Virus record (IMG/VR): IMGVR_UViG_3300043395_002772
Coordinates: 1-40,592 of that record
Length of the DNA: 40,592 bases
Origin: a virus
Strand: one strand, 5' to 3'
The translations under genes were made by a program, and so were the position numbers. Of the stretch, positions 1-40,592 are shown in pieces. The notes beneath the pieces were generated by a model, which was not told the DNA's origin, did no database searches, and saw only the letters and a program-made list of their open reading frames with translations. Within the stretch, counting starts at the first letter, position 1. Every line of letters starts with the position of its first letter.

Positions 1-127
1 CTCTTTTCCGTAGTACACCATGGCTATTGGATCAGCGCCCGTATATCTTCAAGGGGCACCATATCCAAGAGCTCCCCCTGGTGGTCGTCTCTGTCGTCCT
101 CGATATAGCCGACAGAAAACTCCGAAT
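1..127. repeat. Terminal direct repeat (left copy)
   Basis: Bases 1-127 are identical to the last 127 bases. The repeat spans the start of groEL and the 3' end of groES, so it is coding sequence rather than a dedicated terminal element. A 127-base overlap equals a common maximum assembly k-mer, which suggests an assembly overlap of a circular or circularly permuted molecule. A true short direct terminal repeat cannot be excluded from sequence alone. Confidence 0.95.
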
Positions 128-350
128 ACCACACCCTGTCGCCAGCTTGAATGGAGACTGGGTTGATTGGTCTACTTCTATCAAGTAGCATGTTCTGGTC
201 TTCCGGAGCGTAGAGCACCGTGCCATAGCAAAGCCCAGAAGCTTGGAGCTGGTCGTTTGCCTGTTTCAGGACGCCGCTCTTTCTAAGAATGGTTTCTGTT
301 TTGATTTTGTCGCGTTCGATGAGAACGCTTTGACCGAGAGGAATAATCAT
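24..350 (-). CDS. groES: GroES-like co-chaperonin (Cpn10)
   Basis: This 108-aa protein is slightly longer than the usual ~97-aa GroES. It starts with an IIPLGQSVLIER strand, like the IRPLHDRVIVKR start of GroES. A mobile-loop-like stretch follows around residues 24-40 (SGVLK in place of GGIVL), then a GTVL strand, an AGDRVWY strand matching VGDIVIF, and a C-terminal DIRALI helix like DILAIV. It would cap a GroEL ring and close the folding chamber in the cytoplasm. A GGAG ribosome site lies about 7 bases before the ATG. It sits between the major capsid gene and groEL, and its TAG is 2 bases from the groEL ATG once the ends are joined. The degenerate mobile loop suggests it is tuned to the phage GroEL rather than the host ring, which is an inference. 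Confidence 0.85.
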   Translation of the reverse strand: MIIPLGQSVLIERDKIKTETILRKSGVLKQANDQLQASGLCYGTVLYAPEDQNMLLDRSRPINPVSIQAGDRVWYSEFSVGYIEDDRDDHQGELLDMVPLEDIRALIQ

Positions 351-447: not shown

Positions 448-1410
448 TTACGCGCTTGCAGCGGTGTAGATGGAGATAATCCAGCTAGAGTCGAGTACCA
501 CAGGAGCCATCGCGGCCTTCCAGCCGATGGTCGAGAACATATCGAGCGGGTTGCCCGTATCGTTTCGGCCAGGTTCCTTGATAATCAACTGTGCGTTGGT
601 CTTCCCAGTAACGTCTTCAGAGTCGATGGTGACCACACCGAGCGACTGATCGCCCATGATGAAGGTCTGATAGAGCACCGAAGAAGCAGCGAGAGCCGTG
701 GTATAGATGTTATTGGTCTCTACCCACTCCACGCCAGCGAATGTACCTAGGATACCCCGTTTGATCGGGTCTGGGTTGACATATTGCTGTGCGTTCTGCC
801 ACTGCGCGTCTCCGAAGAGGTCATACGCCACTTGCGGCCCAACAAGACCACCAAACACCGGGTTCCCCAGAGCGCCGATGACCGGCAATGCTCGGTTGAC
901 TTTCAGTGTTCGGACTGCGCGTCGAAGTTGGTAGGTGTTCATAATGTCTGAAACCACCAGGTTCGAGCGAGCGGTCGTTGTTGAGTTTCCAGAAGCGTAC
1001 TGCGGAGTCGTTAGGTCTCCACCAGCGTAGAACACGACACGAATAATCGTATCCATGCTCTCACCGGCATTTTGCCCAAAGATTGACACCTGCTCTTCGA
1101 GACCTACATCGATGGACGTTCGGTCATAGAGAGAGGAGATTTGGGTGTAGGAGCCATATTCGACAAGCGTTGCAGCGATGGTCGCGGCGGTAGCATTCGC
1201 CCCAGATGGGTTGACAGCTTCCGTGAGACCAGTCGTCGCAACCGCCGGAGCAATATGCTTCGTGAAGTTGACGACTTTACCACCGTTCTTGGGGATACCG
1301 CGACGTTGTGCGAACGTATCGAACTTCAGAAGAAGTTTTGCTCTTTCGAGAAACAGCTTCGAGTAGTACGTCGCCATTGTGGCGGTAAGACCACCAGTTG
1401 TGATTGCCAT
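448..1410 (-). CDS. Major capsid protein, N4-gp56 family
   Basis: This 320-aa protein matches the N4-gp56 type of HK97-fold capsid protein. Its N terminus has LLERAKLLLKFDTFAQRR followed by IPKNGGKVVNF. A TEAVNPSG segment precedes ATLVEYGSYTQISSLYD, then comes a LRRAVRTLKVNRALP helix. The C terminus has the family ending with MFSTIGWKAAMAPVVLDSSW. It would assemble as the icosahedral shell on a scaffold. An AAGGA ribosome site precedes the ATG by about 8 bases. It follows the scaffold-like gene by 39 bases and is followed by groES and groEL, suggesting the chaperonin may fold it. Confidence is high from the combined motifs and position. Confidence 0.92.
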   Translation of the reverse strand: MAITTGGLTATMATYYSKLFLERAKLLLKFDTFAQRRGIPKNGGKVVNFTKHIAPAVATTGLTEAVNPSGANATAATIAATLVEYGSYTQISSLYDRTSIDVGLEEQVSIFGQNAGESMDTIIRVVFYAGGDLTTPQYASGNSTTTARSNLVVSDIMNTYQLRRAVRTLKVNRALPVIGALGNPVFGGLVGPQVAYDLFGDAQWQNAQQYVNPDPIKRGILGTFAGVEWVETNNIYTTALAASSVLYQTFIMGDQSLGVVTIDSEDVTGKTNAQLIIKEPGRNDTGNPLDMFSTIGWKAAMAPVVLDSSWIISIYTAASA

Positions 1411-1449: not shown

Positions 1450-2151
1450 CTATCGCTGAGTGACCGGCAGGTGCTTCCTCATTTCTTCGGAAGTCATTTT
1501 TTTGAAGTCCAGCCTTGTGTCAGGTTCTGATGCGGTAGAAGTTGCCTTTGCGGGTTGCCCCTCAATGGTTTGCTGTAACTTCTTTCCGCCACTTGCCGTG
1601 CCAGCTTTGAAGATTGGTTCATACTCTTCTGCCCAGATTTGCTCAGGGTCTTTTCCTGAAACGAGCGCCTTCTGCAAGATTGCGTCCTGCAGGGGTTTAG
1701 CTTCAGGTTTCTCTCTGATGAAATCACGGACAAGGACTTTCGTAGAACGCTCAAGGGCGATTTTCGTCTCCCTTGAGATCTGCGGCTGCGCGGTCGCCGT
1801 TTCCGGCTGATTGACCGCAACATTTCCTTGGGCAAGATATTCCGCGAGCTCTTCTGGGCTCAGTCCTGTCTGCTCAACGAGCGCTTCGGTGACTTTGCGT
1901 TGCTGGGCAACGGTCTGGTCTCCGACGAGTTTATTGAGATTCTTGAGTCCTTCGATAGCTTCCTCGCGTGTGGAATACTTGTTAATTCCAGCCTCCTTAA
2001 GTATTGCCAATGGATCTGACTGATCCTGCGCCTCCGGAGTTGACGGCTCTGGGTTGGCGACAGTGGTAGTTGACGCTTCTTCTTCTGGAGGCATTCCAGT
2101 CTGCGGCGTGGCCGTTGTCTCGGCGTCCGCTTGTGGGGTTTGGTCTTCCAT
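1450..2151 (-). CDS. Putative capsid scaffolding protein
   Basis: This 233-aa protein has an acidic, Thr/Pro/Gln/Glu-rich N terminus (residues 1-45), a helical middle (AILKEAGINKYSTREEAIEG onward) and a basic, hydrophilic C terminus. That composition and its place directly upstream of the major capsid gene are typical of tailed-phage scaffolds, which are poorly conserved in sequence. No protease motif was seen. It would fill and shape the procapsid and then leave or be degraded. The assignment rests on context and composition, not on homology. Confidence 0.6.
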   Translation of the reverse strand: MEDQTPQADAETTATPQTGMPPEEEASTTTVANPEPSTPEAQDQSDPLAILKEAGINKYSTREEAIEGLKNLNKLVGDQTVAQQRKVTEALVEQTGLSPEELAEYLAQGNVAVNQPETATAQPQISRETKIALERSTKVLVRDFIREKPEAKPLQDAILQKALVSGKDPEQIWAEEYEPIFKAGTASGGKKLQQTIEGQPAKATSTASEPDTRLDFKKMTSEEMRKHLPVTQR

Positions 2152-6316: not shown

Positions 6317-6451
6317 TCAATGTTTCTTTTTGAAATATTCTATTTGTCGTAAGCGCTTGAGCGCTGCCCTCTTCGACCTGAGAACTTTTGCAAGGCGCTT
6401 TCCCGTCTTTTTTGAGACGACGGTAAATCCATTTTTCAGTTTCTTTATCAT
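6317..6451 (-). CDS. 44-aa basic protein with KRLRQIEYFK motif
   Basis: The ATG at 6451 overlaps the glycosyltransferase stop by ATGA, so this start is preferred over one 27 codons earlier inside that gene. The product has VVSKKTGKRLAKVL followed by KRLRQIEYFKK, a pattern resembling small basic proteins of other tailed phages that lie near packaging genes. The dense positive charge suggests nucleic-acid or virion contact. No function is established. Confidence 0.65.
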   Translation of the reverse strand: MIKKLKNGFTVVSKKTGKRLAKVLRSKRAALKRLRQIEYFKKKH

Positions 6452-7002
6452 ACAGTTTTCGATGTTATATGCCCGACCACAATCGATGGGTCGCAGAACA
6501 TTTTGAGTCCTGCCTTTCTCGCCCGGTAGCAAAAGGCGATGTCGTCGCCAAGGAAGGCCGATCCGCGTTTCACGCGCTCGAAAGGACGAAAGGGGAGTCT
6601 CTGCATCGCTCTGGCGCTCATCATCGTAAACGCCATATGGCAGGCGACGATTTCAAATGGTTCTTTTGGGAGTTCCGTACAAGCCTCATAGAAGGGCTCG
6701 TCCTTCTCGTAGAGCATGTAGGTATGCGGGGGACGTCCCGTGCGGCAGACGGCGGCGATAATATCCTTCCCATCCTCAACGTGCCGAACCATCTTCTCCA
6801 CGTCTTCTTTCGTGAAGACCATGTCAGAGTCCACCATGAGCAGCCACGGTTCGTTCCTCGCGAGATACAAAAGGTCGTTGCGGTTGTCGTCGATATAACA
6901 CCCGTTTGAGGTTTGGATTTTGAATTTTCCTTCTAGGGAAAGCAGGGATTCCACAAACTCCCACGGAGCGAAGAAGCGGTTAGGACGCGCTATACCGAGC
7001 AT
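6448..7002 (-). CDS. GT-A fold glycosyltransferase
   Basis: This 184-aa protein carries the DxD metal and nucleotide-sugar site as MVDSDMVF (D58, D60) after a Rossmann-like NDLLYLARNEPWLL segment. A later GDDIAFCYRARKAGLKMF motif is followed by VGHIT, the usual acceptor-side and C-terminal part of small GT-A enzymes. It lacks a membrane anchor. It would transfer a sugar from an NDP-sugar to an unknown acceptor in the cytoplasm. It lies apart from the other glycosyltransferases, between the terminase subunits. Substrate cannot be predicted. Confidence 0.8.
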   Translation of the reverse strand: MLGIARPNRFFAPWEFVESLLSLEGKFKIQTSNGCYIDDNRNDLLYLARNEPWLLMVDSDMVFTKEDVEKMVRHVEDGKDIIAAVCRTGRPPHTYMLYEKDEPFYEACTELPKEPFEIVACHMAFTMMSARAMQRLPFRPFERVKRGSAFLGDDIAFCYRARKAGLKMFCDPSIVVGHITSKTV

Positions 7003-8547: not shown

Positions 8548-8718
8548 ATGGACAACGAAACGAGGGGTGCGCTCAAGCGCATTGTCGAAGAGGTAAAAGA
8601 GAAGCGGAACGCCGACTGCCAGATGAAAGATTGCGTGGTCAATCATATAATTGGCGGGAACGATATACAACTTGTCGAGGCGTGGCTTTCTGAGACGGAA
8701 AAAGAAGAAACAGAATGA
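8548..8718 (+). CDS. 56-aa small protein, unknown
   Basis: The frame starts MDNETRGALKRIVEEVKEKR and is mostly helical, with two cysteines (CQMKDC). Its TGA overlaps the methyltransferase ATG as ATGA, which supports both starts. It is the first probable early gene after P1. No family is recognised. Confidence 0.7.
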   Translation: MDNETRGALKRIVEEVKEKRNADCQMKDCVVNHIIGGNDIQLVEAWLSETEKEETE

Positions 8719-9146
8719 TACAGCCAGAACTCTACGCCTCACGTCGCATGGACTGGGAGACGCCGGATGAGTTATTCAAAAAGCTCAACGACGAATTCCA
8801 TTTCACGCTTGACGTATGTGCGAACAAGTCAAACCACAAGTGCGAGAGATATTTTACCGAGCAAGATGACGCGCTCCTGCAAGAATGGCATGGCGTGTGC
8901 TGGATGAATCCGCCATACGGCAGAAGCATCAAGTACTGGATGAAAAAAGCGTATCAGGAATCACAGCGCGGTGCGACAGTCGTGTGTCTCGTCTTTGCTC
9001 GCGTTGATACGGCGTGGTTCCACGAATGGGTATACGGAAAGGCAGAGATACGTTTTCTCCGAGGTCGGGTACGGTTCAAGGGCGCAAAATCATCCGCACC
9101 GTTCCCAAGTATGATAGTGATATACAAACAAAAACTAACAAGCTAA
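8715..9146 (+). CDS. Phage N6-adenine DNA methyltransferase (Dam type)
   Basis: This 143-aa protein fits the small phage Dam family (PF05869-like). It has a WETPDELFKKLNDEFHF start, a LDVCA segment, and the catalytic NPPY at residues 65-68 in WMNPPYGRSIKYWMKK. The ending is RFLRGRVRF with an APFPS loop. It would move a methyl group from S-adenosylmethionine to adenine N6 in phage DNA, commonly as protection against host restriction. It is short but complete for this family. Translation is coupled to the preceding gene. Confidence 0.92.
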   Translation: MIQPELYASRRMDWETPDELFKKLNDEFHFTLDVCANKSNHKCERYFTEQDDALLQEWHGVCWMNPPYGRSIKYWMKKAYQESQRGATVVCLVFARVDTAWFHEWVYGKAEIRFLRGRVRFKGAKSSAPFPSMIVIYKQKLTS

Positions 9147-12566: not shown

Positions 12567-13030
12567 AACGTCTCACACTTTCACAGTTGAAGAAATGGGA
12601 ACCCTGTAATGGCCACGACTGGATCGGAAGGATGCAAAAAGAGTACGGGAAGACCGTTGAGTGGCCGGTGGTGGTAGAGATACTCTCAAAGGAAAAAGAG
12701 TGGGGTGCGCTCTTGTGGTTAATTGGAAAGCGACTGGAAAAGCTTACCAAAAGACAGGTGTGCGCATTTGTCTATCGTTGCGCTCACCGCTCACTAAAGT
12801 ACGCGAGGAAGCGTGATGTTGCGGTTCTCAGAAAGGCTATTTCATTCGCTAAGATATTCGCCGAGACTGGGGAAATAGATGTTGATGCCGCGAAGTCGGC
12901 GGCGAAGTCGGCGGCGTGGTCGGCGTGGTCGGCGGCGAGGTCGGCGAAGTCGGCGGCGAGGTCGGCGGAATTCAAATGGCAATTCGACCAACTCCTCTCT
13001 GTAGAAGAAGAATTACCAAAGAAACTTTAA
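12563..13030 (+). CDS. Alanine-repeat protein, copy 1
   Basis: This 155-aa protein has a conserved N-terminal domain (MKRLTLSQLKKWEPCNGHDW, then LTKRQVCAF and HRSLKYARK). A tandem low-complexity helix of AKSA, AWSA and ARSA units follows (about residues 109-135), then a FKWQFDQLL end. It is a clear paralogue of the gene at 17906, but the repeat units and their codons differ (GCG/TCG here). Ala-rich repeats of this type occur in uncharacterised phage and bacterial proteins. No function is known. It starts at an ATGA overlap with the membrane peptide. Confidence 0.8.
   Translation: MKRLTLSQLKKWEPCNGHDWIGRMQKEYGKTVEWPVVVEILSKEKEWGALLWLIGKRLEKLTKRQVCAFVYRCAHRSLKYARKRDVAVLRKAISFAKIFAETGEIDVDAAKSAAKSAAWSAWSAARSAKSAARSAEFKWQFDQLLSVEEELPKKL
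12887..12969 (+). repeat. In-frame tandem repeat (Ala-Lys/Trp/Arg-Ser)
   Basis: Imperfect 9- and 12-base units of the form GCGaagTCGGCG repeat within the alanine-repeat gene. They keep the reading frame and the Ala/Ser skeleton while the variable codon changes among AAG, TGG and AGG. Slippage or unequal recombination could change its length. Confidence 0.85.
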
Positions 13031-17910: not shown

Positions 17911-18385
17911 GAATCTTACCCTAGCACAACTCAAAGAGTGGAAACCCTGTAACGATCAGGATTGGGTTGGTCGTCTTCAGAGAGAATACGGAAAAAGTGT
18001 TGAGTGGGATGTGGTGGTCAATGTTCTTACAAACGAGAAAAAATACTCCGACCTGGGTTGGCTTGTCGGTAAGCGGCTAGAAAGACTGACAAAGCGCCAA
18101 GTCTGTGCATTCTCCTATCGCTGCTCACACCGTTCCCTAAAGTACGCCCGAAAACAAGATTTTGAAGTTTTGAAAAAGGCTGTTGGGTTTGCAAAAGAGT
18201 ATGCTGATACTGGAAGGATTGATAGGGCTGCTGCGTTGGCTGCGAGTGATGCTGCGAGTGATGCTGCGAGTGATGCTGCGTGGGCTGCTGCGAGGGCTGC
18301 GTGGGCTGCGAGTTATGCTGCGGAATATAAATGGCAATTTACCCAACTCCTCGACATCGAAGAAAACTGGAAAGGAAAAGCCTAA
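17906..18385 (+). CDS. Alanine-repeat protein, copy 2
   Basis: This 159-aa paralogue of the gene at 12563 shares the N-terminal domain (MKNLTLAQLKEWKPCNDQDW, LTKRQVCAF, HRSLKYARK) and the FTQLL-type C terminus. The repeat part is DAAS and AAWA/AARA units (about residues 109-140), encoded as GCTGCG blocks rather than the GCG/TCG blocks of copy 1. The conserved domain and separately evolved repeats suggest that the repeat is functional as an alanine-rich helix. It is bracketed by 20-bp direct repeats. Role unknown. Confidence 0.8.
   Translation: MKNLTLAQLKEWKPCNDQDWVGRLQREYGKSVEWDVVVNVLTNEKKYSDLGWLVGKRLERLTKRQVCAFSYRCSHRSLKYARKQDFEVLKKAVGFAKEYADTGRIDRAAALAASDAASDAASDAAWAAARAAWAASYAAEYKWQFTQLLDIEENWKGKA
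18229..18322 (+). repeat. In-frame tandem repeat (Asp/Trp/Arg-Ala-Ala-Ser)
   Basis: Three perfect 12-base GCTGCGAGTGAT units are followed by variants with TGG, AGG and TAT in the variable position. The reading frame is kept throughout. It lies in the second alanine-repeat gene. Confidence 0.88.
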
Positions 18386-35161: not shown

Positions 35162-35676
35162 GGTTTGTCGTTAAGGCGTGTGATTTCACGCTGGATTTCT
35201 TCCTCGCGTCTTCGGTGTTTCTTTTGGAGCTTGAGAAGTCGTATGCCGTGTGTGAGAAGTTCGAGTGTCCTATATGGATCAAGATTATGGTGAAGGCCGA
35301 GGTTGCTTTTTAGCTCCTCAAGAATGGATGCGTAACTCTCCCTGGTATCTGCCCACTTCCGCTCCGTAATAATATCTAGGATGTATCCGTCAACCTCTCG
35401 GATCGTCCTGTCGAGTTGCCACTGGTCAATAGCTCCAAGGGGAATATCTAAAACCGTCGTCAGATATGGTCTGTCGGTATTCTGAAGCCCCGATGGGCCG
35501 ATGTCTGGTTTTTCTCCTCCATGCACAAACTTCTTCGGTTGTGGAGGAGTTGTGTCTTGTTCAGCCGCCTTTCTTGAAGCCAGCTCCGATATACGGACTG
35601 ATGGCCTCACGCCACCGCTCTCCACCCCTTGGGAAGGAGAAGTCACTGAGGACTCGCTGCTTTGCTGCTCTTCCAT
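35158..35676 (-). CDS. 172-aa protein with disordered N terminus
   Basis: The ATG at 35676 has AAGG just upstream and gives a Ser/Glu/Gln/Pro-rich start (MEEQQSSESSVTSPSQ), then a helical C terminus (LELLTHGIRLLKLQKKHRRR). It overlaps the glycosyltransferase end by 116 bases, which is large; a GTG at 35526 would avoid this and give 122 aa. It lies between glycosyltransferases and tail genes. Unknown role, possibly tail or modification-linked. Confidence 0.5.
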   Translation of the reverse strand: MEEQQSSESSVTSPSQGVESGGVRPSVRISELASRKAAEQDTTPPQPKKFVHGGEKPDIGPSGLQNTDRPYLTTVLDIPLGAIDQWQLDRTIREVDGYILDIITERKWADTRESYASILEELKSNLGLHHNLDPYRTLELLTHGIRLLKLQKKHRRREEEIQREITRLNDKP

Positions 35677-36688
35677 AATCCTTTCGTAGTTGTTCGTTTT
35701 CAATAAGCGCAGAGAGTGCGTCAACCCAGTCGTCCTCGGTCGTGCAAAGGAGCGCGTCTTCTGGCCCAAGTCTTGTATATGGGCCAAATCTCGATGCCAC
35801 AGTCGGTATCTCAAGCATTGAATATTCGTACCACTTCGTCAGAGATCGACCATTATTGAACTGTGATTCAATGAGTGGGGCTATACCAATGTCGTATCCC
35901 TGTCTTGCGAGTTCGCTTGGGTATGTTCTTGGGTCTTCTGGGTTCCCGTTCCACCATCCAATACCGGGATAGGTGCACCAATTCTTATCAGAAATTCCCT
36001 CTGCAAAAACCCATTCTGGTTTCATGTGCCCCATAAAGGAGAACACCACGAATGGATACTTCTTAATAATCCGTCGCATGACCGGGAAGATAAGACTATG
36101 ATCGACGGTATGTGATGCGGACGCTGCCCACCCAATAACTAGTCTAGCGTCCGGTCGTCTTGCACGAACAATCCCATGCCAATCCCTCGGATCGTTGTAG
36201 TTCTGTAAGACGATGATGTTTTTGTTGTATGGCTCGTAAATATCAACAAGATGCTTTGTGGCGACAGTGATTGCCGTCGCCTCTTGCATCATCACATCGA
36301 GGTGATAGCGTTCTTCCGAGCCAGGCTCGAATGACATCTTCTCCGCAGACTTCCCATCTGTCGTAAGTACATTGTCATCAAAATCGACGAAGACTGGCTT
36401 ATTATAGAAATCACACGCGGCAAGTACGGAAAGGATGAGCCAAGGATTTTGTAGGTTCTTGGTAAAGACCAAGTCGTGATCCTCGACTAATTCAATAATT
36501 TTTTCTTTTGTTTTCTCTAAGCCAAGCTCCAAGAAGCTGTGACCCGCGTGAGTGTGTTGAAATCCGGTAAGATACCGTGACGGTGCAACCTGTCTGTAGT
36601 GGCCGACGCCGCCAGGAAGACCCCATTTTTGTGCCTCCGCAGATGAGAACTGTACATTGAGCCAAAGGATTTTCGGTGTTTTAGGCAC
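35561..36688 (-). CDS. GT-B glycosyltransferase, paralogue 1
   Basis: The GTG at 36688, with AAAGGA before it, gives 375 aa; a 55-codon upstream extension overlaps the previous gene and is rejected. The protein has GT4-like features. It has VFVDFDDNVL, then VIGWAASASHTVD, the acceptor/donor-domain link. GYDIGIAPLIESQFNNG and KWYEYSMLEIPTVASRFGPY then form the donor-binding site with the conserved Glu. It would use an NDP-sugar. It is a diverged tandem copy of the next gene. Confidence 0.8.
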   Translation of the reverse strand: MPKTPKILWLNVQFSSAEAQKWGLPGGVGHYRQVAPSRYLTGFQHTHAGHSFLELGLEKTKEKIIELVEDHDLVFTKNLQNPWLILSVLAACDFYNKPVFVDFDDNVLTTDGKSAEKMSFEPGSEERYHLDVMMQEATAITVATKHLVDIYEPYNKNIIVLQNYNDPRDWHGIVRARRPDARLVIGWAASASHTVDHSLIFPVMRRIIKKYPFVVFSFMGHMKPEWVFAEGISDKNWCTYPGIGWWNGNPEDPRTYPSELARQGYDIGIAPLIESQFNNGRSLTKWYEYSMLEIPTVASRFGPYTRLGPEDALLCTTEDDWVDALSALIENEQLRKDYGRAAKQRVLSDFSFPRGGERWREAISPYIGAGFKKGG

Positions 36689-37823
36689 GTTCGAATCCTT
36701 TCCCGATATATTGGTCAAAGACCCTCCCCCACAGCTCCCCATGGTCTTTCCATTGGCGGTTCTGTACAACCTCGTTGTATGCAGCGGTGCCGATTTGTTC
36801 CCTGAGCGTTGCGCTCTCGATGAGTCTGGAAATCCACTCAACCCATTCATCAACTGTGTCGCAGAGGATACCGTCTATTCCGTGTTTGATGTTCCTGGCG
36901 TATGGGCCAAAGTTTGTCGCAACAGTTGGAATCTTATACGACGCATACTCCATCCACTTACCCTCAGCCTTGCCATCGTTGAATGGGCTGCGCTTGAGTG
37001 GCGCAAGGCCAATATCGAACCCCCATTTCGCAACCGACGGAAAGTAGTCCAGTATGCTTTGTGTACCTGAATGCACCTCGTATGCCTCCTTGGGCATTCC
37101 CTCAAAAATCTGCCTCAGAATACTTGGTGGCATCCCCCCACAAAAGAGAAAGATGATCTTTGTATTATATTTATTCCAGATTCTCCGATAGACCTCTACG
37201 ACTTCTAAGAAATCGGAAAAGTGCGTCTGAGAACCCATCCAGCCGATGGCGATTCTCCCGTCCTTGCGTTTTGATTTTTTGTACTGCCAATCGTTAATAT
37301 CGTGGAGGTTCGGCAGAACATGAATGTTTGAACAATATGGCTTGTAGACCTCTGCAAGCGGTTCTGTGGAGACGGTCATTGCCGTTACCGAACGGAAGAG
37401 TTCCTCATGTACCGTCTGCTCTAACTTGTCCCTCTTATAGAACTCAGCGTCGGGGTGTAGTTCATCGACCGCGAAGTAATCATCGTCCATGTCGAGAATG
37501 AGTGGTTTCTTGTAGTACGCGCACGGGGCGACAAACTGCAAAATACCCGCTGGAGAAGAAATGTTCTTCATCCAGACAATATCTGACTTTGATATGAGGT
37601 AGGGGATAGCCTCCTGCGGTGGAACGTTGACGAGGTTCTCATCTACCACGTCCGGCAATCTCCCGAAGTGCACCGCGTCAAATCTCTCTGGGAGATATTG
37701 TAGTGGCTTGACAATTCGGTAATACCCAACGCCGCAGTAGAGGTCGAGCTTGTCGTTTCCTTTTCCTCCCCAGTCGTTACGCCACGCCAGGATCCTTGGC
37801 TTGGATTTCTTTGACTGCTCCAT
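36681..37823 (-). CDS. GT-B glycosyltransferase, paralogue 2
   Basis: This 380-aa protein shares with paralogue 1 an LDMDDDYFAVD segment, an AIGWMGSQTHFSD glycine-rich loop, and GFDIGLAPLKRSPFNDGKAE followed by KWMEYASYKIPTVATNFGPY. These fit the GT4 family. No membrane segment is present, so it acts in the cytoplasm. Its substrate is unknown. Its start overlaps the previous gene by 47 bases. The position between chaperonin and tail genes suggests virion protein glycosylation. Confidence 0.82.
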   Translation of the reverse strand: MEQSKKSKPRILAWRNDWGGKGNDKLDLYCGVGYYRIVKPLQYLPERFDAVHFGRLPDVVDENLVNVPPQEAIPYLISKSDIVWMKNISSPAGILQFVAPCAYYKKPLILDMDDDYFAVDELHPDAEFYKRDKLEQTVHEELFRSVTAMTVSTEPLAEVYKPYCSNIHVLPNLHDINDWQYKKSKRKDGRIAIGWMGSQTHFSDFLEVVEVYRRIWNKYNTKIIFLFCGGMPPSILRQIFEGMPKEAYEVHSGTQSILDYFPSVAKWGFDIGLAPLKRSPFNDGKAEGKWMEYASYKIPTVATNFGPYARNIKHGIDGILCDTVDEWVEWISRLIESATLREQIGTAAYNEVVQNRQWKDHGELWGRVFDQYIGKGFERA

Positions 37824-38727
37824 AGATAACCGAGACCATCGTGCTTATTGGTGTATCCTTGTCTGGGTCTCCGGCGAAATCGAGTAAGGCATCCCTCCGG
37901 TTTGCCCAATTCTCTCCTGGGTTTTCTAAGACACCAAGGAGTGTTTCTTTGAGTGTTTTGAGTGTACAGGGGATCGTCGCTGCTGACGGCTTCGTGTCTT
38001 CTTCCCCCTGATGCGTCCCTTCAAGTTTTCTGTGTTTGAAGTGGTCAACGTGAATGACTGGTATGCCAAGTGAGTAGGCCATAAGCTCCATTGTCCCCTC
38101 GAGCATACACACTACCGCGCTTGCTTTTTTGAGAAGCGTAAAGGTGTCCTCAAGGTGCCCCTCTTTGAATCTATCTGTCTGGAGCCAGTTGCCCGGGAAC
38201 ATCTCCGGGTTGTGTTCGTTGATGAGTTTTGCCACTGGCGTAATCTCCGGTATGGAGAGTAGCTCCGACCATACCTCGTAGTTCTCCTTCACTTCCCCCT
38301 GCCAGTGGACCGCATCAAAGACCACAAGCCCCTCTTCTTGTTCTCTTGCCGGCCTGTAAGTGAACCACGGCGCACCGACGCGGAAGACCTGTTCTGGTTT
38401 CCATCCGCCCTTTATTGCAATCTCTTTGTCTTTCTCTCCCCACACAAATGCCGCATTTGCCCATGGCCTATGAAGGCCGTCGAGGTAATCCCTCATTCCA
38501 CCGCGACCGTGCTGAACGACGAAGGTTGGAATGCCGTGCATGTTCGCCACCGCACACATCATCTGGTAGTCTGGGAGAACGTCATTCCACACAAGCAGGA
38601 CATCGACAGTTTTTTCGTCGTTTGCTAATTCTTCTGGAGACGCTATATCAAAGAATGGATATAATGGCGTGAGGATGTCATTGAAGTTCGCGATAACCGC
38701 TCTGAGTCTTTTCGTTTCTACTGCCAT
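37777..38727 (-). CDS. GT-B-fold glycosyl/glycerophospho-transferase-like
   Basis: This 316-aa protein has two Rossmann-like halves. VVQHGRGGMRDYL and FVWGEKDKEIAIKGG lie in the N-terminal half. The C-terminal half has ASAVVCMLEGTMELMAYSLG followed by IPVIHVD. This pattern is shared by CDP-glycerol transferases, capsule-type transferases and UDP-GlcNAc 2-epimerases. It may add a polyol or sugar to a phage or host surface polymer. It is unrelated in sequence to paralogues 1 and 2 but sits with them. Confidence 0.65.
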   Translation of the reverse strand: MAVETKRLRAVIANFNDILTPLYPFFDIASPEELANDEKTVDVLLVWNDVLPDYQMMCAVANMHGIPTFVVQHGRGGMRDYLDGLHRPWANAAFVWGEKDKEIAIKGGWKPEQVFRVGAPWFTYRPAREQEEGLVVFDAVHWQGEVKENYEVWSELLSIPEITPVAKLINEHNPEMFPGNWLQTDRFKEGHLEDTFTLLKKASAVVCMLEGTMELMAYSLGIPVIHVDHFKHRKLEGTHQGEEDTKPSAATIPCTLKTLKETLLGVLENPGENWANRRDALLDFAGDPDKDTPISTMVSVIYGAVKEIQAKDPGVA

Positions 38728-39056
38728 AGTCGCAAGAATTGTGTTTGTGCTCTACCGTGGATAATGCGCTTACCAAAGAGAAGACGAAGAAAATCGTCCC
38801 TCCCCCTTGTTGGGTAGGAGGTGATCTTTCTCAGCCACATTCCTCTTTCTTTATTCCAGGTATTTTCTACCTTAGTGTTTTTTGTTTTCTTTTCGACGTA
38901 GGATGACGAGAGCGTGAATCCGCAGTATTGGTAGCCCCTGTAGAGGGCAACGGGCTTTAGGTTCTTTCCGTTTGGGAGAAAGACGACCCTACCAGAAACC
39001 AACCGAAGTCGTGGGTCGAGTTTCATGAGCCTGGCTTGTAATTGGTGCCTCGTCAT
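38718..39056 (-). CDS. 112-aa basic protein, unknown
   Basis: The product is Arg/Lys-rich with short strands (LRLVSGRVVFLPNGKNLKPV) and a Trp/Tyr-rich middle. Its ATG overlaps the groEL stop by ATGA, so it is made with the chaperonin. It is followed by the glycosyltransferases. It could be a chaperonin partner or a virion part; no family is recognised. Confidence 0.65.
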   Translation of the reverse strand: MTRHQLQARLMKLDPRLRLVSGRVVFLPNGKNLKPVALYRGYQYCGFTLSSSYVEKKTKNTKVENTWNKERGMWLRKITSYPTRGRDDFLRLLFGKRIIHGRAQTQFLRLWQ

Positions 39057-40486
39057 AGTGCGACGCTTTCTGATAAGAGAATAAGCGATGCGACTGAGAT
39101 AGCGTTTTGAAGTGCCGTATGGGTGACCTTGAAAGGGTCGATGATTCCTTCAACTGGGAGTTTCTCGCCAGCGTTATCATCAAGCGTCTTTCTTGGTTCC
39201 TGAAGCGCCTTCTTGAGTATTTTTGATTCTATGAGCTCTGCGGCGTTTTCAAGTGCTACTCCTCCACCTGGTATCACGCCGTCCTCTAGTGTTGCTATTC
39301 CTGCTCGTATACCGTCATCAACACGGAACTTTTTTTCAGTAATTTCTGTTTCCGTCCTTCCCCCAACTTCGACGACACCGACGAGTCCAGAGATTCTTGA
39401 AAGTCTTTGCTCAAGAACCATTTTCTCAACAGGGTCAGTGGCCGACTGTAAGGCTCCAAAGAGTTCCGCCTTGCGTATTTCTCTGTCCCCAGCACCACCA
39501 ATGATCGTTGTCAGAGTTTGTGATGCTGAAACACTCTCCGCGTGCCCCAGGTCTCCGATAGTTGCCGTACGGAGGTTATCTCCCCCCTCGTGCCAAAATG
39601 GCTTTGCCCCGGTAACCGCCGCTATGTCCTGAATAATCTCTCTTTGGCGTTCTGGGGTACCCACTGGACGCACTACCATAACCTTCAGTACGCCGTTTTT
39701 TCGATTCAACTCGATGTTTTTGATCGCTGAGCCGAATACATCATCTGCTATGATAAGAAGATTCCTCTTCCCAGATTCTGCGACCTCTTCCATGAGCCCG
39801 AAAATCTCGTCGATGAGCTCAATTTTCTTGTTTGTGACGAGGATAAGCACGTCCTCGGCGTCACAGTTTCCAGTCTTGGTGTTGGTAATCATCGACGGGG
39901 ACATATATCCACCATCGAACTGGAATCCAGCAGCAACTTCTGACGTTATCCCCATTCCATGACCTGTCTGTACTGCTATTTTAGCATCTTTCCCGAGCTT
40001 CCACAAGATGTCGGATACTAATGTGCCAATCGTTTCATCCCTCGACGCAAGCGAGATAATCCTTCGTAATTCTTCTTTTTTCCCGACTGGCCTCGCTATC
40101 GTCCGTAGGTAATCCACAACCTTCGTCCCGTCCCTTGCGAGCTCGTCCCGAATGTCCACGGGATTCCTCCCAGATTCTACCTCTTCCATCCCAATGGTAA
40201 GAATCTTGTCAGCAAGGAGTGTCGCTGTAGTCGTTCCGTCCCCAGCAACCTCGTTGGTTTTTGCTGCAACCTCACGAATAAGGTCTGCACCGACAGATTC
40301 GACCTTATCCTCAAACTTCAAGTGCTGCGCGATGGTGACGCCATCGTTGGTAATCGCCGGTGGGTGGCCCTCTTGTGCGAGAATCGCGTACCTCCCGCGT
40401 GGCCCAAGAGTCGGAATAACTGCACGAGCGAGTTTATGGACACCTGCGATGAGCTTTTCTCTTGCCTCTTTTCCGTAGTACACCAT
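39053..40486 (-). CDS. groEL: GroEL-like chaperonin (Cpn60), shortened
   Basis: This 477-aa protein (E. coli GroEL has 548) keeps the ATPase signatures. They are LGPRG (27-31), TNDG (D48), GDGTTT (D83), the VDD motif (D391, matching the general base D398) and PGGG near 407. The apical domain has LMEEVAESGKRNLLIIADDV. After the PGGG loop about 35 residues of the equatorial domain are missing, including the GYNA nucleotide-contact segment, though GIIDPFKV is kept. The Gly-Met tail is absent. It would fold phage proteins in ATP-driven cycles with the phage GroES. The missing segments suggest altered ATP handling or ring assembly. Confidence 0.93.
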   Translation of the reverse strand: MVYYGKEAREKLIAGVHKLARAVIPTLGPRGRYAILAQEGHPPAITNDGVTIAQHLKFEDKVESVGADLIREVAAKTNEVAGDGTTTATLLADKILTIGMEEVESGRNPVDIRDELARDGTKVVDYLRTIARPVGKKEELRRIISLASRDETIGTLVSDILWKLGKDAKIAVQTGHGMGITSEVAAGFQFDGGYMSPSMITNTKTGNCDAEDVLILVTNKKIELIDEIFGLMEEVAESGKRNLLIIADDVFGSAIKNIELNRKNGVLKVMVVRPVGTPERQREIIQDIAAVTGAKPFWHEGGDNLRTATIGDLGHAESVSASQTLTTIIGGAGDREIRKAELFGALQSATDPVEKMVLEQRLSRISGLVGVVEVGGRTETEITEKKFRVDDGIRAGIATLEDGVIPGGGVALENAAELIESKILKKALQEPRKTLDDNAGEKLPVEGIIDPFKVTHTALQNAISVASLILLSESVAL

Positions 40487-40592
40487 GGCTATTGGATCAG
40501 CGCCCGTATATCTTCAAGGGGCACCATATCCAAGAGCTCCCCCTGGTGGTCGTCTCTGTCGTCCTCGATATAGCCGACAGAAAACTCCGAAT
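40466..40592. repeat. Terminal direct repeat (right copy)
   Basis: This is identical to bases 1-127. Joining at the repeat restores groES upstream of groEL with a 2-base gap, with no broken gene. Confidence 0.95.

Follow-up and report, generated by a model that had tools for sequence, protein, structure and literature searches.

The stretch of DNA analysed here in full, hereafter the window, is one record of an uncultivated bacterial virus (IMGVR_UViG_3300043395_002772, 40592 bases), and it encodes a GroES-like protein and a shortened GroEL directly behind the major capsid gene. Phage GroES-GroEL pairs are already known; the shortened GroEL and its placement are new. In our sample, a GroEL that lacks the equivalent of E. 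coli residues 462–487, has a lid gene adjoining and is located directly behind a capsid gene is unmatched. The explanation that we favour, with about even confidence, is a capsid-directed GroES-GroEL pair of the phage's own, in which GroEL would act as one ring only and the lid would bind weakly, because the elements for two rings and the adenine-contacting segment are lost.

The order of the head genes was read through the ends of the contig. Comparison of these ends showed that bases 1–127 are identical to bases 40466–40592, the latter copy containing the 3' end of groES and the start of groEL. Because 127 nt is a usual word length of assemblers, the repeat most probably reflects circular closure and not a biological terminal repeat, and the contig would then represent a circle of 40465 bases. 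Through the circular join the minus strand carries a putative scaffold gene (1450..2151, 233 aa), the gene for the major capsid protein (448..1410, 320 aa), the GroES-like gene (24..350) and groEL (39053..40486). The capsid protein matched phrog_1357 (7.3e-49) and has relatives in phages and in IMG/VR; a scan of the capsid alignment against bacterial genomes gave no relative. The scaffold is assigned by its position before the capsid gene alone, as Pfam and PHROG searches yielded no informative family match for it. The groES stop and the groEL ATG are separated by 2 nt, and the groEL stop overlaps by 4 nt the ATG of the next gene (38718..39056, minus strand), which codes for a 112-aa protein. 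This protein is weakly similar to the small gene, different from the Cpn10-like one, that occupies the post-capsid slot in most other relatives (E=0.05 with the family profile; 1.6 for the next ORF of the window). Further downstream lie, among others, genes for glycosyltransferases and for an adaptor protein of SU10 type. The original prediction of a tightly spaced scaffold-capsid-groES-groEL order on the minus strand was thus confirmed, with the scaffold known by position only, and the family matches and gene order support a GroES-GroEL pair within the head module. Glycosyltransferase genes flank the head genes on both sides (35561–37823 and 6448–7002), and in relatives glycosyltransferase or sugar-epimerase genes are also present downstream of the capsid module. 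Elsewhere in the window, a 143-aa DNA methyltransferase-like ORF (8715–9146) shows a partial match to phrog_111 and is perhaps split or truncated, and short GC-rich tandem-like repeats occur in plus-strand ORFs at 12878–12976 and 18205–18322, which are similar low-complexity coding sequences.

The 477-aa product of 39053..40486 is certainly a Cpn60, a group I chaperonin by sequence and fold (Pfam PF00118, 4.6e-38; phrog_5725, 2.2e-103). The AlphaFold2 model (mean pLDDT 81, pTM 0.72) is a complete chaperonin subunit with the three-domain fold, and it was matched to solved GroEL by Foldseek at E=5.7e-47; the identity to solved GroEL structures is about 33–38%. The confidence of the model is good through most of the protein and drops to about 64 in block 441–450, at the deletion junction. 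The distances to bacterial and to phage GroELs are about equal (identity at most about 39%), and in a FastTree tree the protein is found on a long branch of 1.18 substitutions per site, beside the phage GroELs of loci L154 and L006 with modest support. Each of these is encoded within a DNA-packaging module that also has a GroES-type gene nearby. The GroES-type and groEL genes occupy L154:500–7750 and L006:1059–5165, together with terminase and portal genes, and the terminase family of the two loci (phrog_675) differs from that of the window. Database searches found no close relative of the window GroEL, which is present in a single record.

An alignment with Cpn60 sequences, proposed as a check in the original prediction, bore out the claim of a shortened GroEL with the key aspartates retained. 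Residues 1–4, 428–439, 462–487 and 523–548 of E. coli GroEL are absent (edges uncertain by a few residues), whereas D52, D87, D398 and D495 are kept. The alignments place the site that lacks 462–487, that is helix Q and N479–A481, at 39149..39163 (minus strand, edges ± a few residues) and the site that lacks 428–439, which includes E434, at 39221..39226 (minus strand). The phosphate/ribose and catalytic set G32, P33, T91 and G415 is also present, as is I493. The D398–D495 span covers 60 residues in the phage GroEL, compared with 98 in E. coli, and no span below 94 occurs among 85 other viral GroELs (the broken ORF L174 and the partial L007 were left out of this sample); the equatorial shortening is therefore no alignment noise. 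The shortest span among the named phages examined was 81. Residue 479 is N or D in 85/85 other viral GroELs (all viral rows, with E. coli outside the set); in the alignment of the phage protein this position and the rest of the adenine-contacting segment N479–A481 are absent. A pattern search for a short NAG-to-GIxDP distance gave four GroEL loci among the matches listed, and the segment is mostly or wholly present in all of them. At equatorial positions with at least 95% conservation, 39 of 43 residues are kept; the corresponding numbers for conserved apical and intermediate positions are 10/17 and 11/18. Since these near-invariant equatorial residues and the catalytic residues are retained, the ATPase core looks constrained and undecayed.

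The missing segments were compared with the known contacts of GroEL. N479, A480 and A481 contact the nucleotide (PMC2741606), and the contact of N479 is made through the adenine (PMC3053311). Helix Q (462–471) is located where the two rings meet, and phage EL has a loop in its place (PMC7185714); the listed ring-ring contacts are A109, E434, E461-R452, S463 and V464 (PMC2741606). In the phage GroEL, A109 is changed to S, R452 to K and E461 to K, E434 is absent, and the positions of S463 and V464 are either missing or border the deletion. Ring-ring contact residues vary widely across the aligned viral GroELs, and the deletions are a stronger argument for a single ring than the changed contact residues. 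The N-terminal, stem-loop and C-terminal strands of GroEL connect neighbouring subunits, and all of them are retained in the AlphaFold2 model. Because the deletions remove ring-ring contacts while the inter-subunit strands stay, a single seven-membered ring is most likely the best reading of the sequence. The single-ring GroEL that was originally predicted thus gains indirect support, in that listed contact residues are deleted or changed, with the ring state itself being what we infer from them. Loss of the adenine segment would probably alter nucleotide handling, and it could give a poor rather than a tuned ATPase. In the apical domain, Y203 is changed to S and V263 to E (263 is V or I in 82/85 viral GroELs), and lid binding is uncertain because these residues are not conserved. 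R197 is replaced by G.

The GroES-like (Cpn10) protein has 108 amino acids and matched Pfam PF00166 at 0.0023, with a score of 18.4 bits, which is under the cut-off of 21.1. When the Cpn10 profile was run against the 319 ORFs of the window, the GroES-like ORF came first (E=2.7e-5; next 0.19), and this single-family test is fair because the gene adjoins groEL. Comparison with a ten-sequence Cpn10 alignment by hhalign yielded E=1.9e-5 over residues 1–83 of the protein. AlphaFold2 gave a pLDDT of 37 from an alignment of eight sequences, and a search for relatives of the protein found none. For the mobile loop, a profile alignment places V27-L28-K29 (264..272, minus strand) at the position of E. 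coli I25-V26-L27, and MAFFT places LQA there instead. The hydrophobic tripeptide is missing in both alignments, in contrast to nearly all of 47 viral GroES proteins, which have hydrophobic triplets, and to IVL in E. coli; the degenerate loop noticed in the original prediction is thereby confirmed. A charge pair between K29 of the GroES-like protein and E259 of GroEL (E. coli L27 and V263) was considered and set aside as a guess, as L198 has K at the loop and V at 263. A single-ring GroEL becomes functional in E. coli once the contact with the GroES mobile loop is weakened (PMC5575113). The degenerate loop and the lost ring interface would fit this precedent and may be linked changes. The GroES-like protein presumably pairs with the phage GroEL.

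The post-capsid slot was surveyed across 91 IMG/VR loci that carry related capsid genes. GroEL was found in 0/91 of these within the locus stretch examined, so that the search of related genomes for the same gene order, suggested in the original prediction, did not recover it. GroEL was also absent across the full length of 25 capsid-relative contigs of up to 37 kb, which are maybe fragments and have no positive control among them, and, conversely, no related capsid was found when 30 GroEL contigs were searched. A Cpn10-type protein of 86–91 aa is encoded directly after the capsid gene in 12 loci (L010–L012, L014–L019, L105, L123 and L124), which include some near-duplicates. The L105 protein is above the Pfam Cpn10 cut-off (2.1e-6) and is found by the A3 profile at 9.3e-11, and a profile of nine post-capsid genes matched the Cpn10 alignment at E=2.1e-6. 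The 88–91 aa proteins of L010–L018 are unrecognised by Pfam and are taken as Cpn10-like only via L105 and the profile comparison. Most other capsid relatives have a different small gene in the slot and no recognisable Cpn10-like gene; in L112 a clear Cpn10 gene is present, some 4 kb away from the capsid gene. The sharing of the post-capsid slot by a Cpn10-like gene in some relatives without detected GroEL is new. The simplest account looks like a capsid-side lid gene that is recurrent in the phage group, with GroEL added beside it here, the direction of gene gain being one that we infer. The nine-gene profile matched the window GroES-like protein at E=3.2 only, and because the protein is no close member of that group, independent gain of both groES and groEL in the window phage is possible.

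Known phages encode GroEL and GroES, GroES alone or GroEL alone (PMC7185714). A Cpn10-like gene lies near GroEL in 50/87 viral GroEL loci. The rarity that had been ascribed to a matched pair in a genome of ~40 kb therefore holds in trimmed form, given these loci, the 42.9-kb phage MW202497 and the lone GroES genes present in phages of 40–50 kb. The Flavobacterium phages immuto and elemo and the Cellulophaga phage phi38:1 likewise have a GroES gene beside or near GroEL; however, in the stretches read the pair is elsewhere than behind the capsid gene, the genomes are 60–160 kb, and the GroELs (520–544 aa) have the 479 region, whereas the window GroEL has 477 aa and the pair immediately follows the capsid gene. 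MW202497 (L021), a circular phage from Manatee Spring, also combines a small genome with a GroEL near head genes, but this GroEL has 522 aa, a near full-length equatorial domain and a span of 95. Its gene (35734–37302) lies between two glycosyltransferase genes, near the terminase, and a Cpn10 match was not found in the record. T4 gp31 and RB49 CocO are phage-encoded lids of GroES type, tied to capsid folding, that use the host GroEL; the window phage has its own GroEL beside the lid gene. The Cpn60s EL gp146, OBP gp246 and AR9 gp228 are reported to be single rings during some or the whole of the cycle (PMC5934643, PMC9598537, PMC7185714) and function without a lid (PMC9598537), and EL forms double rings through a different interface (PMC7185714). 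These are proteins of giant phages that need no lid, and the adjacent Cpn10-like gene of the window argues against lid-free working. EL also keeps the nucleotide pocket and hairpin (PMC7185714), whereas the window GroEL has the adenine segment deleted. Single-ring mutants of E. coli GroEL of the SR1 type likewise lack ring-ring contacts, and their function requires weakened GroES binding (PMC5575113); they are engineered point mutations, whereas the window GroEL has natural deletions of whole elements.

Other explanations were weighed against the same data. The GroES-like protein could be a lid of the T4 gp31 type that acts on the host GroEL, with the phage GroEL as an extra holdase for unfolded capsid protein and without a full ATP cycle. 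The relatives with a Cpn10-like gene, in which GroEL was not found in contigs up to 37 kb, the missing N479–A481 segment, the change of R197 to G and the lid-free operation of the EL, OBP and AR9 chaperonins (PMC9598537) agree with such a division of tasks. We consider it unlikely but well worth keeping in mind, given that the catalytic aspartates and phosphate-binding residues are retained, that the genes are 2 nt apart and viral GroEL loci usually include a nearby Cpn10 gene, and that the degenerate mobile loop lowers the likelihood of good binding to an ordinary host GroEL. Distinctly unlikely is an ordinary double-ring GroES-GroEL pair with a general client range and divergent but harmless trimming: the missing segments are those known to lie at the ring interface and to contact adenine, and among the matches listed and the 85 viral GroELs no further GroEL was found to lack them, even though many viral GroELs have a Cpn10 gene nearby, the interface residues are variable among them and the double rings of EL use a different interface (PMC7185714).

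Decay of groEL, or an in-frame fusion of two ends by misassembly, would account for the great length of the branch (1.18 substitutions per site) and for the one record without a close relative found; it is hard to reconcile with an intact ORF, 39/43 near-invariant equatorial residues, tight spacing on either side of groEL and good AlphaFold2 confidence over most of the protein (about 64 at the junction block 441–450), and appears very improbable. The small post-capsid gene might also encode a protein that decorates or completes the head and has a Cpn10-like fold but no lid function, as several relatives without detected GroEL have kept it in the post-capsid slot. This is improbable as well: in the window GroEL comes directly after it, as in real pairs, the clear Cpn10 gene of L112 is about 4 kb from the capsid gene, and most relatives have no recognisable Cpn10-like gene, hence it is no required head part.

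The favoured capsid-directed pair with a single-ring GroEL would work as follows. The phage would encode its own GroES-GroEL pair of group I type, tightly packed together with the head genes; a post-capsid Cpn10-like gene recurs in the phage group, and here a GroEL would have joined it. GroEL retains its catalytic core together with the strands needed to form a ring of seven subunits, and it has lost elements that join two rings back to back as well as the adenine-contact segment. ATP would close the single ring, and the weak mobile loop would free the lid with no second ring needed to signal its release. The client would be the major capsid protein, which is likely from gene position, the Cpn10-like gene being kept at this place in some relatives too. 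More tentatively, and with clearly less confidence than in the pair itself, the system could be a natural obligate single-ring machine for one capsid protein, in which the loss of the interface and of the adenine contact is balanced by a weakened lid contact and GroEL was added to a capsid-linked lid that formerly used the host GroEL.

Whether GroEL-type cycling with a lid can proceed as a single ring has long been argued, and most work on the question has used engineered mutants and mitochondrial Hsp60. The pair in the window is a natural candidate for such cycling, with the second-ring elements deleted and the lid contact altered, and its small size would allow expression. The post-capsid Cpn10-like gene that recurs in relatives without detected GroEL suggests a route by which phages may come to whole chaperonins, with the lid first and the ring later.
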